A stretch of DNA of 64,000 nucleotides from Aureococcus anophagefferens (Eukaryota > Sar > Pelagophyceae > Pelagomonadales > Pelagomonadaceae), in NCBI RefSeq assembly GCF_000186865.1, contig NW_008705568.1, forward strand, positions 1,339,506-1,403,505, given 5' to 3'. The notes beneath the pieces were generated by a model that was not told the origin of the DNA, did not search any database, and worked only from the letters and a program-made list of their open reading frames with translations. Of the stretch, positions 1-60,696 are shown in pieces (within the stretch, counting starts at the first letter, position 1; the number at the start of each line of letters is the position of its first letter). The position numbers and the translations under genes are program-made.

Positions 1-3000
1 GTCCGTACTCCGACCGAGCTTGTTGTTCTCGTAGGTGACGCGCACCGGGAAGCGCGCCTGGCTGTTGCCGTCCGGGTCGCAGGAGATGAACGAGGGTACG
101 GGGGTCGGCTGGATGGAGGGGAGCGGCGTGGGAAACCCGGTCGGAGATGCCGACGGAAGCGCCGACGGGCTCGGAGTGGGGGTGGGCGACGCGGACGGCG
201 TCGACGACGGCGCGAAGCTGCGGCTCGGCGTGGGAGCGTGTGTCGGGACCTGCAAGGGGAGCCGCGGTAAGAATAGGATGCCTCTCGAATGAATTTTGCG
301 CGAGACGCCGGTCCGCGCCGACGCGGGAATAGGCGTGGGAGATCCAGTCGGCATCCGGGTAGGACTGGCGCTCGGACTCGACGACGGAGCGCTCGTGGGA
401 GATCCAGTCGGCGTCCCACTGGGACTCGCGCTGGGACTCGCACTCGGCGTATTCGTCGGCAGGAAGCTCGGCGCGGCCGTCGGGGCGTGCGTGGGAACCT
501 ACCGAAATGAGTCAACGCTGCGTCAGTGAGATGCGCTACGCTCACCGATGCGGGTATGCGGGTAGGACCCGGCGACGGGAACAAGCTAGGATAGCTTGTG
601 GGAGCCGCTTTCGGCTCGGCCGTCGGACACGCAGACGGACTCGCCGACGGACTCGACGACGGAGCACCGCTGGGCTCGGCGGTCGTCGGCGAGCGCGTCG
701 GCGCCGGCGTGTGGCTCACCTCAAAGTCCGCGGAATCGCCGACTTCCGGAGCGTCCTCGCAGACGACATCGAGCGTGTAATCGTCGACCTGCGCCGCGTC
801 CGCGACGTTGACCTCGCTGTCGCCGTCGTTGGCCACGCCCGTCTGCGTCGCGACGACTTCGCCGTCGCGCAGCGCGACCGTCACCTGGACCGTCGCGCAG
901 GCGTCGGCGCTGCCGCGGTACGTCCACGTCGTCTCGCATGCGAGGCCCGCGACGCACGTCCAGCCCGTGCCGATGCTCTCGATCTGGATGAAGGTCGCGG
1001 TCGGCGCGCTGGAGGGCAGGGCGCTGGGGCTGCTCGACGGATGCGGGCTCGGCGCGCCGGAGGGCGGGGAGCTCGGGGACGAGGACGGCGCGGGCGTTGG
1101 GTGGGCCGAAGGTGTCGCGGAGGGAGTCGCCGAAGGCGGTGGAGACGGCGCACCGGTTGGGTGCGCGGACGGACGCGAGCTGGGGAGCGTGGTGGGACAA
1201 CCAGAAGGCGCGCTCGAAGGGATCCCGCTCGGTGCCGCCGTCGTAGGCGTCTCCGAGGGCGCCGGACTGGGCGCCCCCGACGGCGCGCTCGACGGCCCCG
1301 CCGACGGAGGCGAAGTCGGCGCGGCCGAGGGACACGCGCTGGGTGCTGCTGTCGTTGGCGTTTCCGTAGGAGCGCTGAATGGCTGCGCGCTGGGCGCGCT
1401 CGACGGCGCGCCGCTCGGCGTTGCTGACGGAATCGAGGAAGGCGCCGCCGACGGCGCGGGCAGCGGTTGGACGGTGGGAAGCGGAACCGGCTCGGCCGAC
1501 GGCGGCGACGTCGGCGCGTAGGACGGCGCGGGACTCCTCGGGACGATCGTCGGCTGCGGCAACCTAGAGAGACGGGATGCGTTGGCCTGCCCGGGCGCGG
1601 GACGCCGGAGCTCGCGGCGCGTCGGTGGGCTCCTCGGACGGCGCCGGCGTCGGAAAGTACGACGGCGAGCTCGTGGGTGCCCCCGAAGGCGGCAGCGAGG
1701 GACTCGGCGACGGGTGGGGCGTCGGCAGCGGCGTCGGCAGCGGCGTCGGCTGCGGCGTCGGCTGCGGCGTCGGCTGCGGCGTCGGAGCCGGCGTCGGGAC
1801 CGGCGTCGGGACCTGGGCGCGCCGGTCACCGAAAGCAGTCCGCGTCCGAAGGCGCGGGGCGCGCGCGGGCGTCGGCGCGGGCGTCGGGAGCGGCGTGGGC
1901 CGGGGCGTCGGCGCCGTCGACGGCGCGGGCGTCGTCGGCGCGGCCGTCGACGGCCGCCGCGTCGCCGTCGGCGAGAGGCTCGGCGCGGCCGTCGGGTACT
2001 TGGACCAGGGCGCGCAGACGTTCTCGTACCAGAGCAGCGTGTCGTCCTTCGACGCCGCGGTGAGGACGTCGACGTCGCCGTCGCCGTCGACGTCCTCGCC
2101 AAAGACGAACGCGGGCCCGTCCTTGCCGTCGGCGACGACGTGCTCGGCGAAGGACATGGCGCCGTCGTTCTCGTACCAGGCGACCGCGTCGTCGGTGTAG
2201 AGCGCGAGCGCGACCTGGGCAGCACAAGGGTGATTCAACGTCGCTTCAACGTGAGTGTTCCGCGCGCGCGCGTAACGAAAAACACATCCACGCTTCGAGA
2301 CCGTTCCGAGAGATGATCGCTCGTCCAAAAATCAGCCGAAACGAGTGGAAAACGGCCGAGATATGAGCCTTTGAAGTTGGGAATTTCGCTCTCTTGTGCT
2401 GCCCCGAGCGCGACGTCGACGTCGCCGTCGCCGTCGAAGTCCGCGGGGAAGAGGAACCGCGCGCCCGGCGCGTGCGCGTCGATGACCCGCTCCGCGAGGC
2501 CGACGGGCGCGCCGCCGTCGTTCTCGTACCAGGACGCCGTGTCGCCCTGCATGCACGCGGAGAGCACGTCCACGTCGCCGTCGCCGTCCTGGTCGCGGCC
2601 GTAGACCTGCGGCGCGCGGCGCGTTCCCCCCCCCGGCCGAGGATCCCTCGAGCCCCGGGGCGCGGCCGCGGACGAAGCGCGCGCCGCCGCAGAGCGTCGT
2701 GACGACGCGCTCCGCGAAGGACTGGGCCCCGTCGTTCTCGTACCACGCGACCGTGTCGTCGTCGGTGGACGCCGACAGCACGTCGACGTCGCCGTCGCCG
2801 TCGACGTCGACGGCGAAGACGGCGTAGACGCCGTCGGCCGCCGCCTCGACGACGGCCTTGGAGAAGGCCTCGGCGTCGTTCGCGTACCAGGCGACGGCGT
2901 CGTCGTCCATGTTCGCGGCGAGCGCGTCGACGTCGCCGTCGCCGTCGACGTCGACGGCGTAGATCTGCTTCACGCCCGCCGCGGCGCCGTCGATGGCCCG

Positions 3001-6000
3001 GCCGCAGGCGAAGCTCAGCTGGCCGTCGTTGGCGCACCAGGCGACCTCGTCGCCGTTCGTCGCTCCGTAGACGAGGTCCCAGTCGCCGTCGCCGTCGACG
3101 TCGGCGGCCCAGATGGACGCGGGCTTGGCGACGCCCGCGTCGACGACGACGCGCTCCGTGAAGGACTCGGCGCCGTCGTTCTCCCACCAGGCGATGACGT
3201 CGTCGCTCTGCTCAGCGACGACGAAGTCGACGTCGCCGTCGCCGTCCGCGTCGAACGCGAACCTGGCGGCCGACGGGTGCGCCCGACGTCCGAGGCCCGC
3301 GCCTCCGTCGGTTCCCACTCGGTTCGGCCCGGTTGTGGACGAGCGATCGTCTCTCGACGCGCGGGCGCTCGCTCCGGAACGAACGCGCGCGGAGCGCTCG
3401 CGTCGAATCACCCCTCGTCGGCCCCGGCGGCGAACGCGAACGCGGAATTGTCGCACGCGTCGTCGACGAGGTGCTCGGCGAAGGCGACCTCGCCGCAGAG
3501 CGCCATCGTCGGCCGCGCGCTCGGCGGCGCCGTCGCGCAGTCGTTCTCGTACCACGCGACCGTGTCGTCGTTGTAGGACGCCGAGAGTGCGTCGATGTCG
3601 CCGTCGCCGTCGACGTCGATGGCGTAGACGGAGCGGGCACCGTCCGCCGAGTCGGCGATGACGCGCTCCGTGAAAGACTGCGAGCCGTCGTTCTCGTACC
3701 ACGCGACCGTGTCGTCGCCGATGGACGCCGAGAGCGCGTCGACGTCGCCGTCGCCGTCGACGTCGATCGCGAGGACGGAGAGGGCGTAGTCGGCGAGCGT
3801 CGTGATGATGCGCTCGGTGAAAGACTGGGACCCGTCGTTCTCGTACCACGCGACGGTGTCGTCGAGGCCGGAGGCCGAGAGCGCGTCGACGTCGCCGTCG
3901 CCGTCGACGTCGATCGCGAAGACGGAGTAGGCGCCGTCCGCCGAGTTTGTAATGACACGCTGCGTGAAGGACTGGGAGCCGCCGTTCTCGTACCACGCGA
4001 CCGTGTCGTCGTTGTAGGACGCCGACAGCGCGTCGACGTCGCCGTCACCGTCGAGATCGATCGCGAAGACGGAGAGGGCGTTGTCGGGTGTGCCGACGAC
4101 GTACTCCGTGAAGGACTCGGACCCGTCGTTCTCGTACCACGCGACCGTGTCGTCGAGGCCGGAGGCCGACAGCGCGTCCGCGTCGCCGTCGCCGTCGACG
4201 TCGATCGCGAAGACGGAGTAGGCGCCGTCCGCCGAGTTTGTAATGACACGCTGCGTGAAGGACTGGGAGCCGTCGTTCTCGTACCACGCGACCGTGTCGT
4301 CGTTGTAGGACGCCGAGAGCGCGTCGACGTCGCCGTCGCCGTCGAGATCGATCGCGAAGACGGAGAGGGCGTTGTCGGGTGTGCCGACGACGTACTCCGT
4401 GAAGGACTCGGACCCGTCGTTCTCGTACCACGCGACCGTGTCGTCGAGGCCGGAGGCCGACAGCGCGTCCGCGTCGCCGTCGCCGTCGACGTCGATCGCG
4501 AAGACTGAGATGGTGCCGTCCGCCGAGTTCGTGATGACGCGCCCGGAGAACGAGACGCTCGCGCAGTTGGCCGTCGGCCGCGGCGTCGGCGTCGCCGTCG
4601 GCGCGTGCGTGCCGCAGTCGTTCTCGTACCACGCGACCGTGTCGTCGTCGATGGACGCCGACAGCGCGTCGACGTCGCCGTCGCCGTCGACGTCGATGGC
4701 GTAGACGGCGATGGCACCGTCCGCCGAGTTCGTGATCTCACGCTCAGTGAAGGACTCGGACCCGTCGTTCTCGTACCAGGCGACCGTGTTGTCGAAGTAG
4801 GACGCCGACAGCGCGTCGACGCCGCCGTTGCCGTCGACGTCGATCGCGAAGACGGAGTAGGCGTAGTCCGCCGAGTTCGTGATGACGCGCTCGGTGAAAG
4901 CCTCGGACCCGTCGTTCTCGTACCACGCGACAGTATCGTCCAAGGCGGACGCCGACAGCGCGTCGACGTCGCCGTCGCCGTCGACGTCCATCGCGTAGAC
5001 GGAGACGGCGCCGTCCGCCGTGTTCGTGATGACGCGCTGCGTGAAGGACTGGGACCCGTCGTTCTCGTACCACGCGACCGTGTCGTCGTCCCAGATCGCG
5101 GAAAGCGCGTCCGTGTCGCCGTCGCCGTCGACGTCGATGGCGAAGACCCAGATGGTGGCGTCCGCCGAGTCCGTGATCACGCGCGCGGTGAAGGACTCGG
5201 ACCCGTCGTTCTGGTACCACGCGACCGTGTCGTCATACTGCACTGCCGCGAGCGCGTCGACGTCGCCGTCGCCGTCGACGTCGATCGCGAAGACGCAGCG
5301 GACGCCGTCCGCCGCGTTCTTGATGACGCGCGCCGCGAACGCTTGCGATCCGTCGTTCTCGTGCCACCTGACCGTGTCGTCGTAGGAGGACGCCGACAGC
5401 ACGTCGACGTCGCCGTCGCCGTCGACGTCGATCGCGAAGACGGAGAAGGCGCCATCCGCCGAGTTCGTGATGACGCGCTTCGTGAAGGACTCGGACCCGT
5501 CGTTCTCGTACCACGCGACGGTGTCGTCGTCGCGGGACGCCGACAGCACGTCGACGTCGCCGTCGCCGTCGACGTCGAACGCGAAGACTTGTCTCACGAC
5601 GTCCGCCAGCGTCGTTATGACGGTCTTCGTGAACGAGACGCTCGCGCAGTTGGCCGTCGGCCGCGGCGTCGGCGTCGCCGTCGGCGCGTGCGTGCCGCAG
5701 TCGTTCTCGTACCACGCGACCGTGTCGTCGTCGCCCGACGCCGACAGCGCGTCGACGTCGCCGTCGCCGTCGACGTCGAGCGCGAAGACGGATTTGGCGC
5801 CATTTGCCAGCGTCGTGATGATGTGTTCGGTGAAGGACTGGGAGCCGTCGTTCTCGTACCACGCGACCGTGTCGTCGTCGCCCGACGCCGACAGCGCGTC
5901 GACGTCGCCGTCGCCGTCGACGTCGAGCGCGAAGACGGAGTAGGCGGCGTCCGCCGAGTTTGTGATGACGCGCTCGGTGAAGGACTCGGTCCCGTCGTTC

Positions 6001-7055
6001 TCGTACCACGCGACCGTGTCGTCGAGCTGGGACGCCGAGAGCGCGTCGACGTCGCCGTCGCCGTCGACGTCGAGCGCGAAGACGGAGCGGGCGAAGTCCG
6101 CGAGTGCCGTGATGATGCGCTGCGTGAAGGACTGGGACCCGTCGTTCTCGTACCAGGCGACCGTGTCGTCGACCCCGGACGCCGAGAGCGCGTCGACGTC
6201 GCCGTCGCCGTCGACGTCGATCGCGAAGACGGAGTGGGCGGCGTCGGCGGCGGCGCTGATGACGTGCGCCGCGAAGACGGAGGAGGCGCCGCAGTCCTCG
6301 GAGCCGCCGTAGAAGGTCGCCCCGCTGTCGTACGCGTCGTCGTGCGCGACGCACGCGAGCTCGAGCGTCGCGCAGTCCCAGCTCCCGCCGCTCCCGTAAG
6401 CGGCGACGCCGGCCGAGCTCGGGTCGTCGAGGCACCAGTACGAGCCGTCCACGGTCCCGTCGCAGTAGGTCTGGACCTGGGCGAGGCTGTTGCAGTCGGC
6501 GCCGCCGAGCGTCACGGCGCACGAGCACGCCTCCGCCGGGCCGCTCTCGTACCACTCGACGTCGTCGCCGACGTACGTCGCCGACAGCGCGTCGACGTCG
6601 CCGTCGCCGTCGACGTCGACGGCGTAGACGGAGCGGGCGCCGTCCGCCGAGTTCGTGATGACGCGCTCCGTGAAGGACTGGGAGCCGTCGTTCTCGTACC
6701 ACGCGACGGTGTCGTCGCTGTAGGACGCCGACAGCGCGTCGACGTCGCCGTCGCCGTCGACGTCGATCGCGAAGACGGAGCCGGCGTTGTCCGCCGAGTC
6801 GGTGATGACGCGCTCGGCGAAGGACTGGGAGCCGTCGTTGTCGTACCACGCGACCGTGTCGTCGTTGGTAGACGCCGACAGCACGTCGACGTCGCCGTCG
6901 CCGTCGACGTCGATGGCGAAGACGGCATGGGCGTAGTCCGCCGAGTCGGTGACGACGCGCTCGGCGAACGCGACGCTCGCGCAGGTCTGGGCCGCGGCGC
7001 CGGCGGCGAACCAGAGGAGCGCGCCGAGCGGCTGGAACCGCCCCCGGCGCGCCAT
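1..7055 (-). CDS. Secreted multi-propeller FG-GAP/VCBS repeat protein (3' end beyond window)
   Basis: Starts at 7055 with a hydrophobic signal peptide ([19 protein letters not shown]...AQT). It then carries 28 blades of about 49 residues with the signature [15 protein letters not shown]; the D-x-D-x-D-G loops resemble calcium-binding FG-GAP/VCBS blades. Cys/Pro/Thr linkers at about 5645-5701, 4562-4618 and 3473-3540 divide them into four blocks of seven, as expected for four seven-blade beta-propellers. An 84-residue Cys-rich insert (about 6290-6540) interrupts block 1. Downstream of about 2030 the protein becomes a Ser/Thr/Pro stalk that also holds an Ig-like segment (about 720-1000). Introns: 3441-3263 and 2414-2215 (introners), 2673-2607 (GT-AG), and less certain ones near 1563-1610, 510-590 and 250-300. 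Probably an extracellular adhesion or cell-surface protein; ligand unknown. The plus-strand [15 protein letters not shown] ORFs are antisense shadows. Confidence 0.85.
2215..2406 (-). mobile_element. Introner element, family A (192 bp)
   Basis: TIRs related to CTGGGCAGCACAAG at both ends. The 8-bp target duplication, GTCGCGCT in gene sense, is at 2407-2414 and 2207-2214. Spliced as 2414-2215 (GT donor from the target copy, CAG acceptor from the TIR) it removes exactly 200 nt and restores ...[12 protein letters not shown] in frame. Confidence 0.93.
2607..2673 (-). other. Short GT-AG intron (67 nt)
   Basis: Needed to join ...GGARF to [13 protein letters not shown] in the propeller gene. The donor GTCCGCGGCCGC and the exon start GTCTACGGCCGC are nearly identical (10 of 12), so it may be an old introner that has lost its interior; this last point is inference. 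Confidence 0.7.
3263..3433 (+). mobile_element. Decayed, GC-enriched family A introner
   Basis: The core (gttcggcccggttgtggacg) is a diverged copy of the family A centre. A perfect 8-bp duplication ACGCGAAC (gene sense GTTCGCGT) flanks it at 3255-3262 and 3434-3441. Splicing 3441-3263 on the minus strand restores [18 protein letters not shown]. The TIRs have drifted strongly and the element is 171 bp instead of 192. It lies in reverse orientation relative to the gene. Confidence 0.85.
3941..4522. repeat. Tandem duplication of a two-blade unit (period 291 bp)
   Basis: Sequence around 4080 (gttgtcgggtgtgccgac) recurs 291 bp later at 4371 with long near-identical flanks. 291 bp is 97 codons, exactly two blades, so blades 15-16 were copied into 17-18 of propeller 3. 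The near-identity suggests a recent event. Outer limits are approximate. Confidence 0.8.
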
Positions 7056-7176
7056 CGTCTGCGCTTCTTATTGGAGTTTCATCCAATGGTTTCATCGAAG
7101 GTTGATCACGCAGATTCGGGGTTGTGGGTGACGTGCTGAACCTCGAACTTCGACAACAGTGACGCTCTTGAACAAA
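7056..7176. promoter_or_regulatory. Short divergent intergenic region (putative bidirectional promoter)
   Basis: About 120 bp separate the start codons of the propeller gene (-) and the plastid translocator (+). It is AT-richer than its surroundings. No recognisable TATA or other element; the promoter role is inferred only from the head-to-head layout. Confidence 0.4.
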
Positions 7177-8379: not shown

Positions 8380-8402
8380 CCGCCCCCCCGCCTAACTCCC
8401 CG

Positions 8403-9186: not shown

Positions 9187-10574
9187 ATGCCGCCGAAGAA
9201 GAAGAAGAAGGGCCGCAAGTCGCGGTCGTCGACGCCCGGGGGCCAGGACACGGTGGGCGCGACGCTCAAGGCGCGCCTCGAGGAGGTGACCGCGGAGTAC
9301 GAGGCCGGCGTCGCCCGGCGCGAGGCGCTCGGCAAGGCGCGCCTCGAGCGCATGGAGGTCCTGGCGGCGCTGGAGGCGGAGGCGGAGCTGCGGCGGCGCG
9401 GGCAGGACGACGCCGGCGAGCGGGCGCTGGAGCGGCACGAGGAGGCGGTCTCCGACTTGGAGGGGAGAATCGACGAGCTGTCCGCGGAGCGCGCGACGCT
9501 CGAGGTCGAGCTCGGCGCGCTCGACCTCGCCGTGGGCACGAACGAGCGCCTGCGGCACGAGGTCTTCGACGCGCGGCGCGCCTTCGAGAAGGAGGACGGC
9601 CTCATGGGCGGCGAGGAGGCGCGCGTCAAGGAGGCGTCGTTCGAGATGCGGATGCAGATCGAGGGCCTGAGCCGCCGCACGCTCCGCGACCTGGACAGCG
9701 ACTACAAGGCGTCGGCGGAGCAGAACATCGAGCTCGAGGCGCGCACCGCCGCGGAGCACAACCGGGAGCTGAGCAAGCGCCTGGAGGCGCGGAGTTTGGA
9801 GGCCGTCGAGCTGCTGGCGGCGCAGTCGGGCCGCGCGAAGCGGCTCCGGGACACGCGCGTCGTCCGCGAGATGCTCGCCGACGCGAAGCGCGAGCACGAC
9901 GCGCGCATCGACAAGATCACGCGCCAGAAGGCGCGCGCGGAGTCGACGGCAGGGCAGGAAAAGAGAGCGAAATTCCCAACTTCAAAGGCTCCTATCTCGG
10001 CCGTTTTCCACTCGTTTCGGCTGATTTTTGGACGAGCGATCATCTCTTGGAACGGTCTCGAAGCGTGGATGCTTTTTCCGGAACGCGCGCGCGCGGAACA
10101 CCCACGTTGAAGCGAACTTGAATCTCTCTTTTCCTGCCCAGGTCGACGGCCATCGAGAAGAACGCGGACATCGCGGACGCGCACGCGGCGCTCCGCGCGG
10201 CGCAGCGCCAGCGCGACGTCGCCGTCGAGGCCGCGAAGCGCCTCGCTTATTTACACGCGAAGCTCGACCAGACGCGCGCGTCGACGGTGCGGCGGCGGTC
10301 GCGCGCGCTCGCGCTCGCGCGCGCGCTCGACAAGTGCGCGGTCGACTTCGAGGCGCGCGCGGCGCTCGGCGCGCCGCCGCCGACCATCGCCGTCGACGCC
10401 GACTACCCGCGCCTCGTCGACACGCCCACGCGCGCGCCGCGCGCGCTCGGCGACGACGAGGGCGACGCGTCCGCGACGACGGCGGACGACGACGACGACG
10501 ACGGCGGCGGCCTCGGCGGGGACCACTTCTCGAACCTCGCCTGCATCCGCATGTGGAACTCGCGCCTCGCGTAA
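9187..10574 (+). CDS. Coiled-coil protein with Lys-rich N-terminus
   Basis: Exons 9187-9941 and 10142-10574 give 395 residues. It begins MPPKKKKKGRKS, then about 250 residues of charged heptad-like sequence (ARLEEVTAEYEAGVARRE, EEARVKEASFEMRMQIEGLS), then an acidic Asp run and the end SNLACIRMWNSRLA. The layout resembles ciliary/basal-body coiled-coil proteins with a Lys-rich start, but no family can be assigned safely. The single intron is a family A introner; with it removed the reading is AEST|AIEKNADIADAHAALR. Confidence 0.8.
9950..10141 (+). mobile_element. Introner element, family A (192 bp)
   Basis: TIRs CAGGGCAGGAAAAG and CTTTTCCTGCCCAG. Target duplication GTCGACGG at 9942-9949 and 10142-10149. 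Intron 9942-10141 is GT-AG, 200 nt, phase 2. Best-preserved family A copy in the window. Confidence 0.96.
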
Positions 10575-11780: not shown

Positions 11781-11790
11781 AAAGCGGCGA

Positions 11791-14202
11791 TTACCCGCCG
11801 AGGCACCGATCGCACGCGGGCCAGGACGCGTTCGCGCACCACGGCTCCGCGCAGGTCCGCCGCCAGGGCTCGGGCGGCAGCGCGAGCCCCGCGGCGGCGA
11901 GGATGCGCGCCGACGCGTTGGCGACGTCGGCGACGTAGGCGTCGAAGGGCAGCTCGAGCCGGGGCCGGCCCGCGCGGTCGAGCGCCTCGCGCGCGAAGCG
12001 GAAGCGCGCGGCGACCCTGCGCTCGTAGTCGCGCGTCGCCGCGTCGGGCCGGCAGGCGTCCTTCGCCGCCGCGTGGGCGTCCGGCGTGTGGCCCCAGTCG
12101 CCGTGGGCCCGCGCGTTGTCGAGGGAGCAGCGCGCGGCCGCGGCGTCGCGCTCGAGGAGCACCGCGGCGACGCCCGGCGCCGTCACGAGCTCCGCGAACT
12201 TGGGGTCGCGGTCGCCCTCGACGAAGTTGTCGACGTGGAGCTTCAACGCGACGACGCAGGTGTCGCCGCAGGCGTCGCGCACGACGGCGGGCCGCGATTC
12301 GCAGAACTTGGCCCGCGCGGCCGTCGCGTCGCCGAGCCAGTCGTCGTGGCCGAGGCCCTTCTTCGGCCGCCCGCGTTTCAGCACCGTCGGCAGGTCCAGG
12401 AAGTCGCTCGGGTGGCTGCCCTTGGCGTACTTGGGGAAGCCGGACGGGAACTTGTCGTAGTGGAGCAGCTCGTTGAACGACGCGCCGCACGGGTGGTCGC
12501 CGACGACCTCGGCCGCCTCCGTGGACGCGGACCGCCGCGTGGAGACGACGACGACGAGCTCGGCGGCCGCGCCGCCCAGGGTCCAGGGCGCCCCGGCGGC
12601 CCGCGCGACGCCGCCGGCGGACGCGAGGCGCCGCCGCGGTGGCCCGTCGGCGCCGCGGGGCCGGTCGAGCTCTCTGAGCAGCGCCGCGTAGGGCCCGCCG
12701 CTCCGGATGCCCGCCGCCGCCGCCCCGAGCACGCGCCGGCAGTCCGGCTCGTCGAGCACGGTGCGGTCGTCCGCGCGGGGCAGCGCGCCCGCGAGGTCGC
12801 CGGTCGCGGCCTCCTCCGCGTGCAATTTTCGGAAGACGTCGCCCGGCTTCGCGTTCTTCGGCGCCTGCGTGGCAATCAAATCTTCAACCCGACTTCAATG
12901 TGCGCGTATGCGACATCTTCGACGCAAGATCTTGAGCAGCGCTTCGAGAACTCGACGAGAGCAATCGATCCGTCCAAAAATCAGCCGAATCGACTTCGAT
13001 GTGACCGAGCTCGAGAGGTTTGAAGTTTTCGCTGGACGGGGCGTTCCACTGGTTGATTTCCACACAGTTCGGCGCGTGCGCGGTCACGGGCCCCGGCGGC
13101 GGCACGCCGCAGGGCCGGTCCCGCCGCAGGAAGCCCAGGGCCTTTTGTTTCCGCGCGACCTTGGTCAGCGGCGCGCCGCCGACCTGGGCAGCAAAAGGGT
13201 GATTCAACGTCGCTTCAACGTGAGTGTTCCGCGCGCGCGCGTTCCGAGAGAAGCATCCACGCTTCGAGACCGTTCCGAGAGATGATCGCTCGTCCAAAAA
13301 TCAGCCGAAACGAGTGAAAAATGGCCGAGATCGAAGCCTTTGAAGTTGGGAATTTCGCTCTCTTTTGCTGCCCTGCCGCCGACGGCGTTGTTCCGCACGT
13401 CGTCGTAGGCCACGTAGAACGACGGCGGCAGGGGCAGGAAGTTCGGCGACGCGCGGAACTCGACGCCGTCCTCGGCGAGGCAGTGGGGCAGCAGCTTGTC
13501 GCTCTGCGGGAAGGCCTCGCTGAACTCGCCGCGGCGCTGGAGGCACCGCGTCGGGCACGCGCCGCCCGCGAGCAGGCCCCGGCGGCCGAAGAGCCAGCCG
13601 CCGCCGCCGCAGAGCCGCGCGCCGAGGTCGCTGCGGCCGTGGACCTCGGCGCAGGGCGCGCCCCAGTAGGCCCGCGCGTCCGGCAGGGCCGCGACGTAGC
13701 GCCGCAGGGCGCCCGCCGCGAGGTACGCGTCGTCGTCGAGCGTCAGCGCCCATCGGAAGGGCCGCCGCGCGGCGAGCCAGGCGGCGAACTGCAGCCCCAC
13801 GGGCCAGCGGAGCTGGGCGAGCTCGTAGCCGTTGGCTTTCGACGCCTCGTAGCGGGCCTGCCGCGGGAAGGCGCCCCACGCGCCCGGGGGCAGCCCTGCG
13901 AGCCGTAATGTCACCGTGGGGACCGTACCGTCGCTGCCGCAGGCGTCGGAGAGCAGCACGAGCGACGCGGACACGCGGCGGCCCCAGGTCGGCAGGATCA
14001 TGGCGCCGACGCGCTTCTTCCACGTCGCCTGGCCCGTGACGACCATGACGAGCAGCTCGCTCGCGTCGAGGCGGCCCGTCCAGGCTTCGACGTCGCCGCC
14101 GCAGGCGCTCCAGAGCCGCGGGCACGTGCCGTTCGTCCCCGCGTCCCAGTCGTCCGCCGCGGACGCGAGCGCGAAGGCCGCGAGAACGGATGCGCGAAGC
14201 AT
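11791..14202 (-). CDS. GT31/fringe-like glycosyltransferase fused to a sulfotransferase-like domain
   Basis: Exons 14202-13384, 13183-13076 and 12864-11791 give 666 residues, every exon a whole number of codons. Signal peptide MLRASVLAAFALASA. The N-half resembles fringe/core-1 type beta-1,3-glycosyltransferases: WKKRVGAMILPTWGRR, metal-binding DDDAY in FRWALTLDDDAYLAAGAL, WGAPC, GGGGWLFGRRGLLAGG, EDGVEFRASPNFLPLPP. The C-half carries a PAPS-type pattern: VVVVSTRRSAS (phosphate loop), VVALKLHVDNF, and a VLLERDAAAARCSLDNARAHGDW 3'-phosphate region. Probably a Golgi enzyme making and sulfating a glycan; acceptor unknown. Both introns are introners, one of each family. Confidence 0.8.
12865..13067 (-). 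mobile_element. Introner element, family B (203 bp)
   Basis: Ends CTGCGTGGCAATC / GATTTCCACACAG. Perfect target duplication TTCGGCGC (gene sense GCGCCGAA) at 12857-12864 and 13068-13075. Intron 13075-12865 uses a GC donor. Joins ...PVTAH|APKNAKPGD. Confidence 0.93.
13184..13375 (-). mobile_element. Introner element, family A (192 bp)
   Basis: Ends CTGGGCAGCAAAAG / CTTTTGCTGCCCTG. Target duplication CCGCCGAC (gene sense GTCGGCGG) at 13176-13183 and 13376-13383. GT-AG intron 13383-13184, 200 nt, phase 0, joining VRNNA|VGGAPLTK. Confidence 0.95.
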
Positions 14203-14329
14203 TGCTATTCACGGCGCCATCGCGATGGGATGCCAGTTGTGAAGTTCACGAAAAATGGTTTGACTTTCAAGCTGCATATCGATCCGTATGGGCCCGGACC
14301 TGCGCGCCTAGCTCGTAGGGCTAGGCACG

Positions 14330-17300
14330 ATGGACGCGGCGACGCTCGTGCTCGAGCCGCTGAAACGCGCGTCGACGAGCTCGTCGCGCCACACGGACGA
14401 CGGTTCGTCGCCCGCCGACGCCGTCGCCGTCGACGGGAGCCGCTGCGTGCTGGGCCGCGCCGGCGGCGACTCCGTCGTGGCCGGCGTGACGACGCTCAAC
14501 GTGTCGCGGGAGCAGGTCGCGCTCGAGCGGTGCGAGGGCGGCTGGCGCGCGACGCAGCGGGGCATGAACCCGTCCTGCGTGATCGCGGACGACGGCGTCC
14601 ACGTGCTGCGCCGCGGCGAGTCGCGGCTCCTCCAGGACGGCGACGACGTCGTCCTCGACGGCAACTCGCTCATGGGCCGCGTGCGCAAGCAGGGCGGCTT
14701 CTGCGACGGCTTCCGCGTGCGGACGCGCGCGCCCGAGCCCGCGAGCCTCCTCGCGGCGAAGGACGCGGAGATCCGCGAACTGAAGCGGAAGCTCGAGGAG
14801 GCCGCGCGGCGGCCGCCGCGGCCCACGGTCATCCCGCGCGACGAGACGCCGCCGCCCGCCGTGGCCGTCCGGGCGACGGTCGTCGGCGGCGCGGACGCGT
14901 CGGTCGAGGCGCGGCCCCTCGCGGGCGAGACCGTCGGCGACCTCCGGCGGTCGCTCGCGGCCACGACGGGGCTCGCGCCGCCCTTCAAGGTCATCTTCCG
15001 CCAGCGCGTGCTCGACGACGACGCCGCGACGCTCGAGGGCGTCGGGCTCGTCGAGGACGCGGCCGTCGTCGTCGTCGCGGCGCCCTTCAGGGTCCGCGCG
15101 AGGGTCGTCGGCGGCGCCGAAGTCGCGGTCGACGCGCAGCGGACGCACGCCGTCGCGGCGCTCAAGGCGGCCATCGCCGGCGCGGCGGCGCTGACCGCGC
15201 CCTTCACGGTCATCTTCCGCCAGCGGCCGCTCGCCGACGACGCCGCGACGCTCGCCGACGAGGGCTTCGACGGCGACGCGGACGTCGTCGTCGTCGCCGC
15301 GCGCGCGGCGCCGCGGCCCGCGCGCTTCCGCTTCGCGGCGACGAACGCCGCGGTCGACGCCGACGCGCGCGCCGGCGCGACGGTCCGCGACGTCCTCGCG
15401 GCGACGCCGGGCTGCGCGGGCCACGCCGCGTCCTTCGGAGGGCGGCCGCTCGACCCCGACGCGCGCTGGGCCGACCTCGGCCTCGCCGGCGGCGCGGTCG
15501 TCGACCTCGCGGCGGCCCCGGCGGCGCCCTTCGCGGTCACGGTGAGGACGGCCGCGGGCGACGTCCGCGTCGAAACCGCGGCGGACGACGCCGTCGACGC
15601 CGTCGTCGCCCGCGTCGACGGCTGCGCGGGCCTCGTCTTCGCGGGCGCGCGCCTCGACGGGGCCGCGCCCCTGTCGCACTACAACGTCCAGAAGGGCCAC
15701 GTGCTCCTCGCCGTGCCCGCGGCGGCGCCGGCCGACGCGCGGCGCGGCCTCCTCGACAGCTCCGACGACGACGACGACGGCGCCGCCGCCGCCGACGGCG
15801 CCGACGACGCCGACGACGCCGCGGCCGCCGCGCCGCCGCCCGCGGCCGCCGCGCCGCCGCCGGCCGCGCCGCCGCCGGCCGCGCCGCCACCGGCCGCGCC
15901 GTCGCGCTGGCCCCTCGCGGGCGCGCGCAAGGTCTTCGCCGTGTTCTCGCGGAACTGCCCGCCGAAGCTCTGCGCGATCCTCGGCGAGCTCCCGTGTGGA
16001 ATTCAAATCTTCAACCCGACTTCAATGTGAGATTGTTCGACGGTTTGGACACAAGCTCTTCGGCTGCGCTTCGAGAGCTCAGCGAAAGCCATCGGTTCGT
16101 CCAAAAATCAGCCGAATCGACTTCGATTCGACCGAGCTAGAGAGGTGTGAAGTTTGGTCAGGACCGCCCACACCAGTGGTTGCATTCCTCACAGGCAAGC
16201 TCGTCGAGGACCTCGGCGGGTCCGTGGACTGCGCCGTCAGCGGCGACCGCTACGACGCCGCGCGCATCGGGCGGGACCGCGGCGGCTGCGGCGTCTCGCG
16301 GCGGACGACGCACGTCATCGTGAGCGACGACGAGGCGCGGCGCCAGCTCCGGTGCCGCGACGGCGGCCCGGGGCGGCGCCGGGAGCTGCTGGCCTACCTC
16401 GGCTTCGACCCGGCGGGCGGCGACGCCGGCGACCGGCTCTGGTTCGTGTCCCAGGGCTGGGCGCACGCGTCGCGCGGCGGCCGCGCCGACCTGTGTGGAA
16501 ATCAACCACTGGTTTGGGGGGTCCCAACCGAACTTCAGAACTCTCTATCTCGGTCAAATCGAAGTCGATTCGGCTGATTTTTGGACGAATCGATTGCTCT
16601 CATCGAGTTCTCGAAGCACAGCAGAAAGCCTCGCGTCGAAACGGTCGCATACGCGCACATTGAAGTCGGGTTGAAGATTTGATTTCCACACAGGCGCCGA
16701 CGAGCGCGACTTCCTCGCGACGCCGGGCCTCGCGCCGTCGGCGCTGCCGGAGCCCGTCGCCGCGGACGCACCGCCGCCGGCGGCGGCGCCCGCGGAGGTC
16801 GGCGCGGCGACGAAGCACGCGCTGGCCGCGATCCGGCGCGACGCGGAGGAGGCGGCCGGCGACGTTGAAGCGCGGCGCGCGGCGCGCGACGCGGGCGCGG
16901 CGACGCTCGAGGAGCTCCGGCCGTCGGCGCGCTACACGGGCCTGCGGCGCCTCGAGGGGCCGGCCAAGGCCTGGCGACCGGACGGCGACCGGCCGCGCGC
17001 GCACCGGCCGGCGAATACGAGGGCTTTGGACGCGTCCTTGGGCGACGCCGCGCGGCTCGAGGTCGACGTCGGCGGCGAGGCCGCGCTGCTCCGGGGCCCG
17101 TCGGTGCGCCTCGCGGACTACCTCGCGCTCTGCGCGCACGTCCGGGGCCTCGGCGGCGCGCCGCCGAGCGACCGCGTCGCCCCCGTCTTCGTCTTCTCGC
17201 GCGGCCGCGCCGAGTCGCCCTACGTGGACCAGGACCGGCCCCTGGCGCTGGGCGGCCACGCGCCGGGCCGGCTGCGCCACGTCTGGGTCGTCGTCGTGGA

Positions 17301-19592: not shown

Positions 19593-19627
<35 letters not shown>

Positions 19628-42717: not shown

Positions 42718-43883
42718 ATGGACTTCATCAGCGACGTGGAGAAGAAGATGGGCGACATGCTCGGCGGCAGCGCCATGCTCTGCCAGAAGGGCGACGAGAC
42801 GCCCCACGAGGTCCTCTATTTCCCGATAACGGCCCTGGGCGAGCCCATCCGCCTCGCCCTCGCCGTCGGCGGCTTCCCCTTCACGGACACGAACCCGCGC
42901 AACTGCGAGACCTTCCAGGAGCGCAAGAAGGAGCTGTCGCCGCTGGGCGAGGCGGGGCAGGTGCCCATCCTCGTGCTCCCAAACGGCAAGACGATGTGCC
43001 AGTGCCGCGCGATCCTGCGGTACCTGGGCAAGGTCTGCAAGTTCGAGGGCGCGCCCCTCTACCCGACGGACCCCATCGCCGCCTACGAGGCCGACGCGCT
43101 CATCGAGCTCTGCGAGGACATGCGCTCGCCGCTCGGGGCCACGTTCGCGATCTCGGACCAGGCGGAGAAGGAGGCCGCGCACGCGGCTGTGTGGAATTCA
43201 AATCTTCAATGTGCGCATATGCGACAGTTTCGACGCAAGCTCTTCGGCTGTGCTTCGAGAACTCCACGAGAGCGATCGATTCGTCCAAAAATCAGCCGAA
43301 TCGACTTCGATTTGATCGAGCTAGAGAATTCTGAAGTTTGGTCAGGACCACCCAAACCAGTGGTTGAATTCCACACAGGCGCGCGGCGCTCTGGGCCGAG
43401 GGCGGCAAGCAGAAGAAGTGGGCCGCGGCGCTCGACGCCACGCTCGCGAAGGATCCGATGACGACTTTGACCATCGGCAACATCTACGCGTTCTGCATCG
43501 TGAACATGTTCCGGACGCCGACGTTTCTCGACGGCGTGCCGCCGGGCGTCTTCGACGAGCACCCGGCCATCCAGAAGCACCACGACTGGGTCGCGAACCT
43601 CGCGCCCGTGCTCGAGTACTACAAGGAGAAGGACGGCATCCGCGTCGCCTTCCAGCCCCTCCCGAAGCCCGAGCCCGAGCCCGAGGCGCCGTTCGCGCTC
43701 GAGGCGAGCCAGATCGTCCGCCAGGAAGGCAAGATCAAGCAGCTCGAGGAGGTGGGGGCGCCCGACGGGGCCATCGACGCCGCCAAGGACATCCTCAAGG
43801 CCATGAAGGACAAGTACCAGGAGGTCCACGGCAAAGAGTACGTCGCCGAGCCCGAGGCCGAGGCGCCCGCGCCGGCGGCCTAG
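42718..43883 (+). CDS. Glutathione S-transferase with C-terminal WHEP domain
   Basis: Exons 42718-43178 and 43379-43883 give 321 residues. Thioredoxin-fold N-domain: EVLYFPITALGEPIRLALAVGGF, GQVPILVLPNGKTMCQCRAILRYLGK. Helical C-domain: ALIELCEDMRSPLGATF, then AALWAEGGKQKKWAAAL and IGNIYAFCIVNMFRTPTFLDGVPPG. The last 60 residues (EASQIVRQEGKIKQLEEVGA, IDAAKDILKAMKDKYQEVHG) match the helix-turn-helix WHEP-TRS domain otherwise found on aminoacyl-tRNA synthetases. GST and WHEP domains both occur in multi-synthetase complexes, so a translation-related role is possible besides detoxification. Confidence 0.9.
43187..43378 (+). mobile_element. Introner element, family B, reverse orientation with internal 11-bp deletion (192 bp)
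   Basis: Perfect TIRs CTGTGTGGAATTCAA / TTGAATTCCACACAG. Target copies GCACGCGG (43179-43186) and GCGCGCGG (43379-43386), one mismatch. Lacks the 'cccgacttcaa' segment present in other B copies. GC-AG intron restoring KEAARAALWAEGG. Confidence 0.94.
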
Positions 43884-51398: not shown

Positions 51399-53353
51399 CT
51401 AGAGCGCGGAGCAGGCGACGGCGATGGCGAGCGCGGACAGCGAGGCGACGGCGGCGACCTTCTCCGTCTGGAACTTGGACTCGCAGGCGAGGAGCGCGTC
51501 CGGGAGGAGCTCCGTGAGCGCGATCCACAGCATCTTCTCCGCCGCGAAGCCGACGAAGGCGAAGGACGCCGTGCCGAGGCTCGCGGAGAAGAGGAAGGCC
51601 AGCGGCGCGGTCAGCGCCTGGGGCGCCGTCGCCGCGAAGGCGACGAAGACGGCCGCGAGCGGCGCCTTGCCGCGGCCCCGGAGCACCGTCGCCGTCGCCA
51701 AGCCCCTCGGGCACGTTGTGCGCGAGGATGGACACGAGGGCCGCCCGGCCCGCGCGGATGGAGTTGCCGTAGGCCGCGCCGAGGACGACGCCCTCGGCCG
51801 CCGCGTGCGTCGCGAGCGCGAAGGCCAAGCGCGGCGACCGTCGAGTGGCCCGCCGCCGCCGCGGCGGGCGCCTGCGCCGCGGACCACTTGGACTTGGACC
51901 GCGTCCGCGGCGCGCGCGTCGCGTCCTCCGGGTGCTCCACGCCCAGGAGCCGCGGCAGGACCACGGACGTCAGGATGCCGATCACGAAGCCCGCCGCGCA
52001 CGCCAATTCCGAATCTTTCGCGGCGTCGACGGCCAGAGCCACGGCGATGGACAGCACGGCCCCGCCCGCCGCCGCGTTCGAGTACTTCGTGAGCGACGGC
52101 GAGTGGGCGAGGAAGACGCAGGGCAGCGCGCCCACGGCCGCGAACGACGCCGCGCACAGCGCCTCGCCCGCGACGAGGCCCACGGACGCCGTCTCCGCGG
52201 ACACGCCCAGCGACCCGAAGACCGTCGACATGAGCGACGGCGCGGCGTCATTGATGCAATCGCCGCTCGCGCACGTGTCCTCCCGCGGCGGCCGGGGCCT
52301 GGGGGATGATACGGCGCCGTCGTCGTGCTGGAAGCCCTCGAGCACATGCCCTATGACGTACGCGGCGAGCGCCGCCGCGCCGCCGTTGACGACCATGCCC
52401 AGGGCTGAATCCCAGGCGGGCTGCGCCGTCAGGCGGGCCTTGGCCGCGCCGAGGGCCACGAGCGTGAACGTCGTCACCTGGGCAGGAAAAGGGTGCGAAA
52501 TTCCCAACTTCAAAGGCTCCTATCTCGGTCGTTTTCCGCTCGTTTCGGCTGATTTTTGGACGAGCGATCATTTCTCGGAGCGCTCTCGAAGCGTGGGTGC
52601 TGTTTCCGAAACACGCGCGCGCGGAAAACTCACGTTGAAGCGACGTTGAATCACCCTTTTCCTGCCCTGGTCGTCACGAGACAGGACGCGCCGAACATGA
52701 GCTCCGGCGTCGGCGCGGCGGCGAGGGACACCGTCGCGTAGTAGGCCACGAGGGGCGTCGCGCCGAAGATGGCGAAGGACGCGGCCGTGGTGACGCCCTT
52801 CTTCGCCGCCAGACTCAGGCCCTCCTCGGGTGCCGCCTCCTCGGCGGCCGCGTCCGTCCACTCGTCGGGAGGAATGAGCTGCAGCCGCGTCATCATCGTG
52901 TGCGCGACCAGCACGTCGTCGACGGTGGCCAGCGCGTCGACGCACCGCGTCGCGTCGGCCCGCGCGAGGCCCGCGCGCGCGTAGGACTCGACGAGCGCGG
53001 CCTTCTTGGCCTCGGCGCCGCCGTCTTTGAGCTCGTCCTTCTCCCGTCGCCACTCCGACGTGACGTACTCGTCCTCGGCGCGCTCGCTCAGGTAGTCGCC
53101 GATGCCCATGGAGAGCGCGTCGGCGACGAGGTTCGCCGCGCCCATGAGGAGCACGAGGCCCGGGTGCGCGCGCGCGCCCGCGACCGTCGCGACTATCGCG
53201 AACGTCGTGATCTGCGGAGGGGGGGGGGGGGACGGTCCGGCGCAGGTGCGCGCGCGGAAAACGGTGCGGGCGCGGGCGTCGCGCGATGCCGTCGAGGCCG
53301 CCGAAGACGAGGGACTTGACGTAGGTGCCCGCGGTGTTGGCCTCGTCGGCCAT
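51399..53353 (-). CDS. VIT1/CCC1 iron transporter fused to ZIP-type metal transporter, with apparent frameshifts
   Basis: Exon 1 53353-53285 (VKSLVFGGLDGI), intron 53284-53210 (GC donor, poly-C then CTCCGCAG), then ITTFAIVATVAGAR and GLVLLMGAANLVADALSMGIGDYLSERAEDEYV, the VIT/CCC1 signature, with the cytosolic Glu-rich metal-binding helices. After the introner (52677-52478) the VIT part ends and a ZIP-like transporter follows: TASVGLVAGEALCAASFAAVG, LTKYSNAAAGGAVLSIAVAL, LAFALATHAAAEGVVLGAAYG and AHNVPEGLATATVLRGRG (His/Glu metal sites), and a final helix LSALAIAVACSAL. Frame breaks lie in a CG run near 53170, at about 51829 and about 51700. Whether sequencing error or decay is undecided. Probably a vacuolar or plasma-membrane iron/manganese/zinc mover. 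Confidence 0.78.
52478..52669 (-). mobile_element. Introner element, family A, reverse orientation (192 bp)
   Basis: Ends CTGGGCAGGAAAAG / CTTTTCCTGCCCTG. Perfect target duplication GTCGTCAC (gene sense GTGACGAC) at 52470-52477 and 52670-52677. GT-AG intron of 200 nt, phase 0, joining GASCL|VTTFTLVALG. Confidence 0.95.
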
Positions 53354-55265: not shown

Positions 55266-58200
55266 TCAGCGCTGGCGCCCCGTGAACTCCGTCGTGCCCG
55301 GTCGGCGCTCGGGCTGGTAGACCTTGCGCTCCTCCTCGGCGTAGTTGCGCTGGTTCTCGTGGCCCGCGGACGTCTGCGGCCGGTTCACGTTGACCGCGGA
55401 GACCGCGTGGGGTCCCAATGAACTGCCGTCGTCGTCGAAGTCGTCGTCCACTAGCGGGTGGGGCCCCTGGATGGACGTCGCCTGGCTGCTCTCCTCGTAG
55501 CGCGGGTGGATGGACCGCTGGTCGTCCAAGAGCTGCTCGAGCTTCGACACGACGAGCGAGATCGAGCCCTCGAGGCGGTCGATGCGGGCCGCGAGGCGCG
55601 CCTCCGTGCGCTGGTGCTGCTCGAAGGTGACGCCCGGCAGCGCGAGGCCGTCGCCGGCGTGGCCGGGCACGCCGGAGTGGTCGCTGAGGCGCCGCTGGCC
55701 GTCGTCGCTGAGGTGGTCCGACGCCGTGCCCGGCCGGAAGCTCGGGTCGTCGCCGAGACCCTCCTCGCCGAGCGTCGCGTCGTCGTCGGGCGCGTAGGTG
55801 CGCTCGTCGTGGTCCAGCACGAGGATGTCCGCCTTGGGCTTGCCCTGGCGGTTCGCCGCGGGCTCGGACGATCCCCGCGGCGGCGACCCCGGGGCCAGCG
55901 ACGCGCCGTCGTTGAACGCGAGCACCTCCGCGCCGTCGCCGCCGGCGGACGGGTTCTCCGCGGGCCGCGGCGCGACGACGACGGGGCCCAGGCCCTTGAC
56001 GACCTTGGGCGGCTTCTGCACGGGCGCTAACCGGTGCTTGCCCGTGTCGACGAAGCCGCCGGCGGGCGCGACGGCGCCGGACCCGTAGCCGCCGCCGCCG
56101 CCGGAGTCGGGCGTGCCCGCGCGCTGGCCGAACAAAGCCGCGCCCCGCTCGTCGAGCGTGCCGCCGTTGCCGTAGGCGGGCAGGCCGTGGCTCGCCTGGA
56201 AGCCCGCGGAGGAGCCAAAGTTCTTCTTCCGCTCGCGCTGCTGCTCGAAGATCGTGCCCTTCCCGAAGCCCTTGCCGCCCTGGGGCTGGTAGTTCGCCGT
56301 CTTCCGCATCGTGCGCCGGCGGTTGCCGTCCTTGGCGTCCGCGGAGTCGTCGTAATTGCCGCCGTGGGGCATCGCGTGCGCGAGCGGCGCCATGCGCGCG
56401 TAGTAGGGCGACTGGCGCTCGTCGAACTGCTTCGGCTCGACGTAGTTGCCCTCGAGGAGGTCCAGGAGCTTGCCGTCGCGCCAGGCGCGCTTCATGTTGT
56501 GCTTGAGGAGCATCCAGTGGCCGAACGCGCGCACGCCCGACGACAGCGTCCGGTAGTGCGCCGACTCGAGGATGGACACGAACTCCTCGGCCTGCATGGA
56601 GTAGACCAACGAATGGGTCAGCGTCTTCGCCGTGTAGTGGCGCACGCGCCGCCGGCCGTCGACGAGCAGGGTGCAGACGTCCTTGCCGACGATGTTGTTG
56701 TGGCGGTCCGTGATGATCTCCTTCGACTCGATGCTCGAGTCGTCCTGGTCGAAGACGACGGCCTTGCCCTCGACCATGATGAAGAGCACGTCGTTCCAGG
56801 AGATGTCCTGGTGGACCATGGTCTCGTTGGCCATGAAGGAGATGCAGGACACGTGGAGCGACAGCTCGCGGACCATCATCTCCACCTCCCGCATGCACAA
56901 CAACGCGTCCTTGCCGCGCGCGCAGACGATGCGCTCGTGCTCGACCATGGTCTCCGTCTCGGGGCTGAAGTCGTCGGTGTAGCGGATGTCGTAGGACATG
57001 CAGTCCTTGCCCACGGCCTCGATGACCGCGGGTCGTAAAAACAAATCCTTCTTGTACTGCTTCGACGCGTACTTCTGCTTGATCTTGCACTCCGTGCCCT
57101 TCTTGATGTCGAGCGTGCGGAAGATGGCGTAGCGAAAAAAGGGGATGGCCGTGATATACCGGCCGATCTCCTCCTTGGCGATGGTCTGCTGCAGGCCCGG
57201 CGATAAAGCCAGCAGCATCTTCCGGTGGTAGACGTTGCGGAACATGCCCGCGGCGGAGACGAAGAACTCGCGGAGCTTCACGCGCATCTCCGTGGGGAAC
57301 TTCTTCTCCACGGCGAAGGCGTTCAAATTGTCCACCGTGTTCTTGTACTCCATGGACGCCGGGTCGCTGTTGCCCAGGATGTGCGCGACCTCGCCGATCA
57401 TGAACGACGTCACGATGTTGCCCGCGAGGCCCGCGATGACCGCTAAGATCATGATCCCCAGGTTCGGCGCGTCGGCGTCGCCCGTCAGCGCGCGCATGGA
57501 CCAGTGGAGCGCCGAGAAGTACTCGACGGACTTGCCCCGGTCCGCCCGAATGATCTCGAACTCGAGGCACGCGTGGTCCTCGCGGTGCGATTTGTGCCAG
57601 TCTTTCGAGTGCGTGTAGTCGTCGCCCAGGACGCCCGTGACCGCGTCGGCCTCGAGGCACGGGCGGATGAGCATGCGCGCCGCGCAGGCGAACCAGTGGA
57701 GCACGACCACAATAATGAAGACGAAGCGGAGCACGGACAGCGACTTGAACGAGAGCTGGAGCCGCGACGCCCACCAGTTCAGCAGCCGGCCGATGCGGAC
57801 GACGCGCAGGAGCTTCAACAACTTCAACACCTTGAGCGTCCGCAGGAGCCGGAACCGGTTGAAGGACTTGGACACGGAGAGCACGTCGTAGGGCAGGATG
57901 GAGACGACGTCGACCGCGAACCAGTTCTCCGCGTAGCCTGTGCCGAAACCAAATCTTCAACCCGACTTCAATATGAGCGTATTCGAATGTTTTGACACAA
58001 GCTCTTCGGCTGAGCTTCGAGAACTCGACGAGAGCGATCGATCCGTCCAAAAATCAGCCGAATCGACTTCGATTTGACCGAGCTAGAGAATTCTCAAGTT
58101 TGGTCAGGACCACCCAAACCAGTGGTTGGTTTCGGCACAGCATGTAGCGCTCCGCGATGACGCGCCGGTCCGTGATCCAGCAGCCGCTCTTCGCGTCGAA

Positions 58201-58893: not shown

Positions 58894-59275
58894 GGCGTCC
58901 GTCGGGGCGCGCACACGGCGCTTCTCGAGCGGCGGCCGCGGTGCCGCGCCGCGGCCGGGGCGCGGCGCCGCCGGTCCCGACCGAGGCGCGAGCGCCGCCG
59001 CCGGCGGCGGAGCGCCGGGAGCGGCGCCGGGTACGCGGCCGCGGAGCGGCGGGGCGACGGGCGAGCGGTCGCGGTCTGCCGGGCCCGGGTCCCTAGGCCG
59101 ACGAGGTCCGGGGGCGCCGCTGGACCATCTTCGACCGGCCAGAGAGGGCGCTGCCCACACCGGAAGTTGTTTTATTGCAACACATAAGATCTTGCTGTGC
59201 ATCTGCTGTGCAAGGCAGCCCGCGTGCACCCAGCGCACGATGATGCGCGGAGCCTGACGGGCCCCTCGGCCGCCC
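58894..59275. other. Divergent intergenic region
   Basis: Very GC-rich next to the channel gene, then an AT-richer stretch (gttttattgcaacacataag, about 59169-59188) near the C2-PGAM start. Likely leaders/promoters; no element recognised. Confidence 0.45.
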
Positions 59276-60696
59276 ATGGGCGGCGCCGGCTCCGTCGCGC
59301 GGCCGCCGGCGCCCGCGGCCTGGGGCGCCGGCGGCGACGTGCTCTGCGTCGAGCTCCGCGCGGCCACGGGCTTCCCGGCGGCGCCGCCGGCCGGCGGCGG
59401 CCTGCCCTTCGTCGCGCTGCGCGTCGGCGCGAGCGACGACGCGCCCGTCGCCGCGCGCTGGCCCCACGCGCGCCGCGCGGAGACGGCGCCCGTCTGGCGC
59501 GGCTGGCGGCCCCTGGGCGAGCCGGAGGGCTGCGCGGCGATTACCGTCGAGCTCTTCGAGGGCGGCGCGAGAGCGACGCTGGACCTCGTCGGCGCCGACG
59601 GCGCCGTCGCGCCCGGCGACGTCACCGCGTCCGTCGGCGGCTGCGCGCTCGTCTTCGCCGCGCGCGTCGCGACCTGTGTGCAAATCATCCAGTGAGCTGG
59701 GACGTCCCGACCAAACTTTGAAATTCTCTAGCTCGGTCAAATCGAAGTCGATTCGGCTGACTTTTGGACGGATCGATTGCTCTCATCGAGTTCTCGAAGA
59801 ACGGCGGAAGTGCTCGGGTCAAAACATTCGAATACGCACACATTGAAGTCGGGTTGAAGATTTGATTTCCACACAGGTCGCGACAGCGGCGCCCAAGTGG
59901 TGCTTCGCGGTCCGCCACGCGGAGTCGGGCCGGAACCGGCGCGGGACCGGGGCGATTCGACGTCGCTTCAACGTGAGTGTGCCGCGCGCGCGCGTTCCGG
60001 AAACAGCATCCGCGCTTCGAGAGCGCTCCGAGATATGATCGCTCGTCCGAGCATCAGCCGAAACGAGCGGAAAAGCGGCCGAGAGCGGAGCCTCTGGGAA
60101 CGTCTCACCCGTGTCCCGCCCAGGCTGGAACCGCGCGCTCGCGACGGGCGACGTCGTCGCGCTGCTGGGGACCATCGACCACGGCCTCACGCGCGCGGGC
60201 GTCGCCCAGGCGCGGGGCCTCGCGGACGAAATCGCCGCCGCGCGGTGCTCCGCGCGCGCGGGGTCGCTCGAGCGCGCGTTCGTCGACGCGTCNNNNNNNN
60301 NNNNNNNNNNNNNNNNNNNNNNNNNNNNNNNNNNNNNNNNNNNNNNNNNNNNNNNNNNNNNNNNNNNNNNNNNNNNNNNNNNNNNNNNNNNNNNNNNNNN
60401 NNNNNNNNNNNNNNNNNNNNNNNNNNNNNNNNNNNNNNNNNNNNNNNNNNNNNNNNNNNNNNNNNNNNNNNNNNNNNNNNNNNNNNNNNNNNNNNNNNNN
60501 NNNNNNNNNNNNNNNNNNNNNNNNNNNNNNNNNNNNNNNNNNNNNNNNNNNNNNNNNNNNNNNNNNNNNNNNNNNNNNNNNNNNNNNCGCGACGCTGCTG
60601 TTCGGCTCGGCGCTCGCCGGCGACGACGCGAGCGCGCGGCGCGCCGCCGTCTTGGCTGACGTGCGCGACCAGGCCCCCGTTAAAGAACTTTCTTAA
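59276..60696 (+). CDS. C2-like domain fused to histidine phosphatase (phosphoglycerate mutase superfamily), gapped
   Basis: Exons 59276-59665, 59877-59928 and 60124 onward, interrupted by a gap. The N-domain (DVLCVELRAATGFPA..WPHARRAETAPVWRGWRPLG..ITVELFEGG) has the beta-sandwich spacing of a C2 domain. The introners lie directly before and inside the catalytic motif: exon 2 plus exon 3 give CFAVRHAESGWNRALATGDV (RHxExxWN, catalytic His and phosphate pocket), then GTIDHGLTRAGVAQARGLADEI. After the gap a short C-terminus ends RDQAPVKELS. Could be a phosphatase or a regulatory protein. The stop overlaps that of the convergent PH-domain gene. Confidence 0.8.
59674..59876 (+). mobile_element. Introner element, family B (203 bp)
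   Basis: Left end CTGTGTGCAAATCATCC (slightly diverged), right end GATTTCCACACAG. Perfect target duplication GTCGCGAC at 59666-59673 and 59877-59884. GT-AG intron of 211 nt. Confidence 0.94.
59937..60123 (+). mobile_element. Introner element, family A, reverse orientation, diverged (187 bp)
   Basis: Interior gattcgacgtcgcttcaacg...cgctcgtccgagcatcagcc; right end GTGTCCCGCCCAG. Target copies GCCGGAAC (59929-59936) and GCTGGAAC (60124-60131), one mismatch. GC-AG intron; the splice creates the RHAESGWN catalytic motif. The exon between it and the preceding introner is only 52 nt. Confidence 0.9.
60293..60587. other. Assembly gap (295 N)
   Basis: Run of unknown bases inside the histidine-phosphatase domain; the middle of that protein cannot be read. 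Confidence 0.99.

Follow-up and report, generated by a model that had tools for sequence, protein, structure and literature searches.

New introns, whose source is an old question in eukaryotic genome evolution, can be supplied by introners. A stretch of 64,000 nucleotides from the genome of the brown-tide alga Aureococcus anophagefferens, hereafter the window, carries many copies of short, related repeats inside coding regions. The question raised by this locus is whether these copies interrupt the genes or are removed from their messages as introns, and by which route they have spread. Here, we delimited the elements, compared the genes before and after their predicted removal, and searched for further copies in the genome. 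Judged from the sequence, the elements are almost certainly introners, that is, short DNA transposons, non-autonomous and bounded by terminal inverted repeats (TIRs), which were inserted in coding exons and are excised as introns.

In the proposed mechanism, an element would insert into a coding exon and 8 bp of the target would be duplicated. The upstream copy of the target, starting with GC or GT, would become the 5' splice donor, and the downstream end of the element would provide a pyrimidine-rich tract followed by a CAG acceptor. Splicing would then take out the element together with one 8-bp copy, so that the message would be unchanged. We infer that excision is carried out by the spliceosome, that mobility is of the cut-and-paste type and that a transposase acts in trans.

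Two families of elements

A scan for a common 19-nt core and for flanking duplications delimited 23 elements in the window. Automatic delimiting, which allowed at most one mismatch in the target site duplication (TSD), placed 22 of them. The remaining element, 57938-58140, has two mismatches in its TSD, and its ends were placed manually with the help of the family alignment. With its length fixed at 8 bp, the TSD is present on all 23 elements, as a previous sequence-only reading had claimed for the well-preserved copies. It is perfect in 15 and has one mismatch in seven, which makes 22 of the 23 with one mismatch or none. The same reading had recognized two TIR families, A of about 192 bp and B of about 203 bp, and related elements of those sizes were indeed delimited. 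Family A has nine members in the window, six of which are 192 bp long, and family B has fourteen, with a length of 203 bp in eight. The TIRs that a DNA-transposon introner requires are found in both families. The A and B consensus sequences have the core in common, with 23 of 24 bases identical, and their subterminal motifs also look alike by eye in the alignment; the two families probably form one lineage.

Two elements of the B type, 21055-21260 (206 bp) and 24318-24521 (204 bp), are hybrids, in which the left part is B-like and the right end is A-like (CTGCCCAG). They possibly represent a third subfamily. In addition, BLAST found two decayed A copies that have no clear TSD, at 3303-3407 on the plus strand (about 70% identity over 116 columns) and at 21850-21995 on the minus strand (84% identity over 146 columns). 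Of the 26 copies originally counted, 25 were confirmed, 23 with a TSD and 2 decayed; the one that we did not recover is decayed as well. A search of the whole window against Rfam, at gathering thresholds, gave zero matches.

Predicted splicing and reading frames

Read on one strand or on both, each of the 23 elements follows a single splice rule: one target copy opens with GY, and the element terminates in AG beside the other target copy. By sequence, one splice site is thus carried by the element and the other comes from the duplicated target in every case. The predicted donor on the gene strand is GC in 16 of the 23 and GT in seven. The predicted intron has the length of the element plus 8 nt, as had been proposed from the sequence, and mostly measures 200 nt for family A and 211 nt for family B. 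Below, the strand of the core is given before the stroke and that of the predicted intron after it; the TSD is 8/8 and the intron is GC-AG unless stated otherwise.

In the frame test, the coding frames on either side of each element were picked independently, and frames are expected to join by chance in about one case in three, a figure that was reasoned and not simulated. Once the element and 8 nt were removed, the frames were in register for 21 of the 23. One of the two exceptions is the hybrid 24318-24521 (+/-, TSD 7/8), where the upstream coding signal is weak. The other is the B element 59674-59876 (203 bp, core +, GT-AG), which fits the splice rule on both strands and was taken as plus; it is discordant on the plus strand and concordant on the minus strand, and another element lies 60 nt downstream, within the tested stretch. 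The rule is satisfied on both strands by one more element, 16491-16693. One stop each was seen in the upstream test stretch of 18754-18955 and of 59937-60123, the latter a diverged mirror form of family A (187 bp, -/+, TSD 7/8).

The remaining elements whose genes are not taken up below are the A elements 9950-10141 (192 bp, +/+, GT-AG) and 23219-23410 (192 bp, +/+), the B elements 21470-21672 (203 bp, +/-) and 43187-43378 (192 bp, -/+, TSD 7/8), and the other hybrid, 21055-21260 (+/-, TSD 7/8). For the element-bearing genes that were not rebuilt, the support is that of the frame test.

Since TIRs and target duplications are shared with plain MITEs, the elements could be ordinary MITEs lying in genes, which they would disrupt without being spliced. 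We regard this as very unlikely, because the GY...AG rule has no exception among the 23 elements, all frames but two join, and protein domains are rebuilt over the junctions tested.

Genes rebuilt across the junctions

The richest gene, 14330-20273 on the plus strand, carries five elements. These are the B element 15992-16194 (203 bp, -/+, against the direction of the core; TSD 7/8), the B element 16491-16693 (203 bp, +/+), an A element of 181 bp at 17845-18025 (+/+), the mirror-form A element 18407-18598 (192 bp, -/+, GT-AG) and a B element of 202 bp at 18754-18955 (+/+). The spliced frame has 4,923 nt, or 1,641 codons including the stop. The third of the five junctions, that of 17845-18025, lies where a TAGT (TET-associated glycosyltransferase) domain ends; the SNF2 domain found with Pfam spans two junctions, as the last two elements lie inside it. 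The product combines TAGT with an SNF2 helicase, and by eye there are ubiquitin-like repeats before both; the protein may have a role in the modification of DNA bases.

The gene 27893-30850, of the DUF924/GST type, has three elements: 28469-28672 (B, 204 bp, +/-, GT-AG, TSD 7/8), 29020-29212 (A, 193 bp, -/-, TSD 7/8) and 29875-30077 (B, 203 bp, -/-). The last of these lies inside DUF924, which extends across one junction. Splicing gives 777 codons plus stop, or 2,334 nt, and the coding lengths that the sequence-only reading had calculated for this gene and for 14330-20273 are both right. Predicted junctions are likewise crossed by the VIT1 domain, which contains the mirror-form A element 52478-52669 (192 bp, +/-, GT-AG), and by the Ion_trans domain, an ion-channel domain that contains the B element 57938-58140 (203 bp, -/-, TSD 6/8). 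Six spliced proteins were searched, and one of them, from the two-element gene 11791-14208, gave no Pfam family; its elements are 12865-13067 (B, 203 bp, -/-) and 13184-13375 (A, 192 bp, -/-, GT-AG). The gene of a MeaB-type GTPase contains the B element 25897-26094 (198 bp, +/+), and the spliced protein aligns to human MMAA (2www) over the junction without a gap. The comparison of frames and proteins predicts that the message is unchanged after splicing.

On the minus strand, 1985-7100 of the window is a gene made of many 49-residue FG-GAP-like repeats with a period of 147 nt. The A element 2215-2406 (192 bp, -/-, GT-AG) lies inside one of these units. Only when the element and 8 nt are taken out does this unit return to the fixed spacing seen in its sister units. 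The sister units have no insert.

The similarity in sequence of these introns would also be expected if they were old, conserved introns that gene conversion has homogenized. However, the elements lie in different genes, each site has its own 8-bp duplicate, and the sister units of the FG-GAP-type gene are empty. Furthermore, the mean divergence from the consensus is 4.6% for family A (17 copies) and 11.6% for family B (9 copies). We consider homogenization to have a negligible probability. Insertion of DNA-transposon introners is the reading that we retain. The sequence-only reading had proposed the same model, and the sequence-level predictions of it that we tested were borne out in the TIRs, the TSDs, the origin of the splice sites, the joining of the frames and the rebuilt domains.

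Database proteins with and without the element

Two database proteins represent the MeaB gene. One, P0241, from an ENA contig of 1,596 bases, is an uninterrupted MeaB with 97% identity. The other, P0243, from an ENA contig of 2,035 bases, continues from this gene into the B element, where translation terminates at the first in-frame stop, and its element part differs from the window at one position. One of the two may stem from a spliced message; alternatively, the contigs are alleles that differ by the insertion. Each case is compatible with the introner model. As a protein sequence, the uninterrupted P0241 is the nearest evidence for splicing, and it could be an empty allele.

The A. anophagefferens protein P0129 (NCBI) maps onto a gene resembling glycosyltransferase family 90, which contains the B element 35871-36073 (203 bp, -/-). 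The identity is 98.9% over residues 1-265 and 97% over residues 265-417, and P0129 matches the start of a UDP-glucose pyrophosphorylase in the window at 148 of 150 residues. For another protein of the window, the best match is at 93% and the 120 hits listed include none named Aureococcus, so that an origin from a near relative is improbable but conceivable. Its other blocks have 75-92% identity, largely because the P0129 model is without exon stretches that are found in the window. In this model, the exon restarts at the CAG of the element and the donor is placed upstream, so that 57 residues which the GC donor would keep are missing. The loss was presumably caused by the lack of a rule for GC donors. 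With the 57 residues restored, a weak match to glycosyltransferase family 90 appears (21.9 bits, cut-off 24), while P0129 itself has no match. A GC donor, the more frequent type here, can thus accompany a public gene model from which exon sequence has been lost. At 35870-36249 on the minus strand, P0129 apparently fuses two adjacent genes, and it is there, beside the GC-donor introner, that it lacks the 57 residues.

Copies in the genome

The genome-wide search that had been suggested with the sequence-only reading was made with the 19-nt core. It is found in 2,184 exact copies in the assembly (49.05 Mb, 86 contigs) and the reversed control pattern in 0, which excludes chance. Exact patterns gave 776 + 348 = 1,124 left ends of family A, the 348 being of the CTG form, and a pattern with up to two mismatches gave 1,397 right ends of family B. 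Among the 30 exact-core copies listed first, 26 were resolved; the TSD is perfect in 22, 25 are compatible with splicing and 23 of these 25 are concordant in frame. The single resolved copy without a GY donor is L057. Among the best 30 matches to family A, 28 were resolved, all of which follow the splice rule, and 26 are concordant in frame.

The window has 18 exact cores in 64 kb, compared with 2.8 expected from the genome average. Among the 100 contig-1 places that were listed first, no 64 kb has more than 8, and the 10-kb flanks of the window have 0 and 1, the flank with 0 consisting partly of N. The window appears to be an introner hot spot of unexplained cause, although the excess is post hoc, as the window was chosen for its copies.

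Horizontal or viral copies were also sought. One exact core each was found in viral (IMG/VR) and in prokaryotic (GTDB) contigs, with no visible element around either, and such copies were rejected at that sensitivity.

Direction of insertion

In the window, the predicted splicing of family B runs with the direction of the core in 8 of 14 elements and against it in 6, and in family A three of nine cores are antisense to the gene. These figures bear on whether the elements have spread by an RNA route, through reverse splicing or retro-insertion, as has been proposed for fungal introner-like elements. The copies do coincide with predicted introns, as such a route would have it. However, cores antisense to the gene are not expected from reverse splicing of one sense intron, and 8-bp target duplications and TIRs are present. 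We therefore consider an RNA route to be extremely unlikely, and prefer insertion of the elements as DNA.

The two families appear to differ in their ends. Of the nine genome copies of family B that were resolved, eight have an acceptor at each end. In family A, exactly one TIR arm ends in AG in all 51 copies, of which 45 have one form and 6 the mirror form. This set comprises 28 copies found via one major-form query, 17 first-listed copies and 6 from the window; it omits 17845-18025 and 59937-60123, whose ends are damaged, and counts 9950-10141 once, as L001. The 348 CTG-form copies are known from their left ends alone. At positions 9 and 11, the two arms match in 45 and 43 of the 51 copies, respectively, an agreement that relatedness alone can yield, and at positions 15 and 17 the association in the 51 copies is not significant. 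That family A obeys a one-acceptor rule is a suggestion that we make tentatively and hold to be rather doubtful. Position 2 might be kept mismatched because a second acceptor, in antisense, is selected against, or through rewriting of the ends during transposition. If the rule were true genome-wide, one transposon lineage would contain both one-way (A) and two-way (B) introners. The pattern is possibly new. The parts consulted of several papers (PMC9860276, PMC9481584, PMC10228655, PMC7789003, PMC12768974, PMC11237714) contain no mention of it, although it may be in print elsewhere.

Search for a transposase

Profile searches of the genome identified no transposase that mobilizes families A and B. 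The hAT dimerisation domain, PF05699, has no match in the genome, and the control genomes gave none either. PF18758, PF10551, PF21789 and PF21788 also have no match; the controls matched for PF10551 and, below the cut-off, PF21789 only. P-type transposons have an 8-bp TSD. The P-element-type transposase PF21787 was found in one copy, L065 (contig C25 of the assembly, G000), at about 1482-2863, and a DNA search showed that it is single in the genome. The copy is apparently truncated. Over about 1.4 kb, its frame contains seven TAG codons but neither TAA nor TGA; the TAG codons are either decayed CAG codons or a sign of a foreign code. On its 3' side, the copy borders on a diverged introner relic, and a search of the 10-kb stretch around it, part of which is N, revealed no ends of the A or B type. 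We read this copy as a lead and not as the autonomous partner.

Comparison with known introners

Huff, Zilberman and Roy reportedly described introner elements in Aureococcus anophagefferens in 2016. As P0129 maps to the window in blocks up to 99% identical, the elements are very probably those same introners, from which we know of no essential difference. Elements of this kind have thus been described before, very probably from A. anophagefferens itself, and our findings leave the known introner model unchanged. The window provides a clean and dense example of it, with five insertions in one gene, a repeat array that serves as an empty-site control and a pair of database proteins with and without the element.

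In the portion of PMC10228655 that we used, Huff et al. are credited with the co-option of splice sites and with insertion in both orientations, so the two-way insertion seen here is not new. Passages of PMC9481584 and PMC10228655 cite about 210 bp as characteristic of Aureococcus introners, to be compared with the 200 and 211 nt that predominate among our predicted introns. The remaining comparisons draw on sections of Gozashti et al. 2022 (PMC9860276). The Symbiodinium introner shown there has TIRs and a TSD, with a donor from the TSD and an acceptor from the element, as in the window, but its TSD is 4 bp long instead of 8 bp. Family 4 of Aureococcus sp. (TARA) adds 12 nt to the message, whereas the window elements are predicted to add none (PMC9860276). 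Fungal introner-like elements resemble the window elements in being near-identical introns spread across many genes; they are described in those sections without TSDs and TIRs (PMC9860276), whereas the elements of the window have both.
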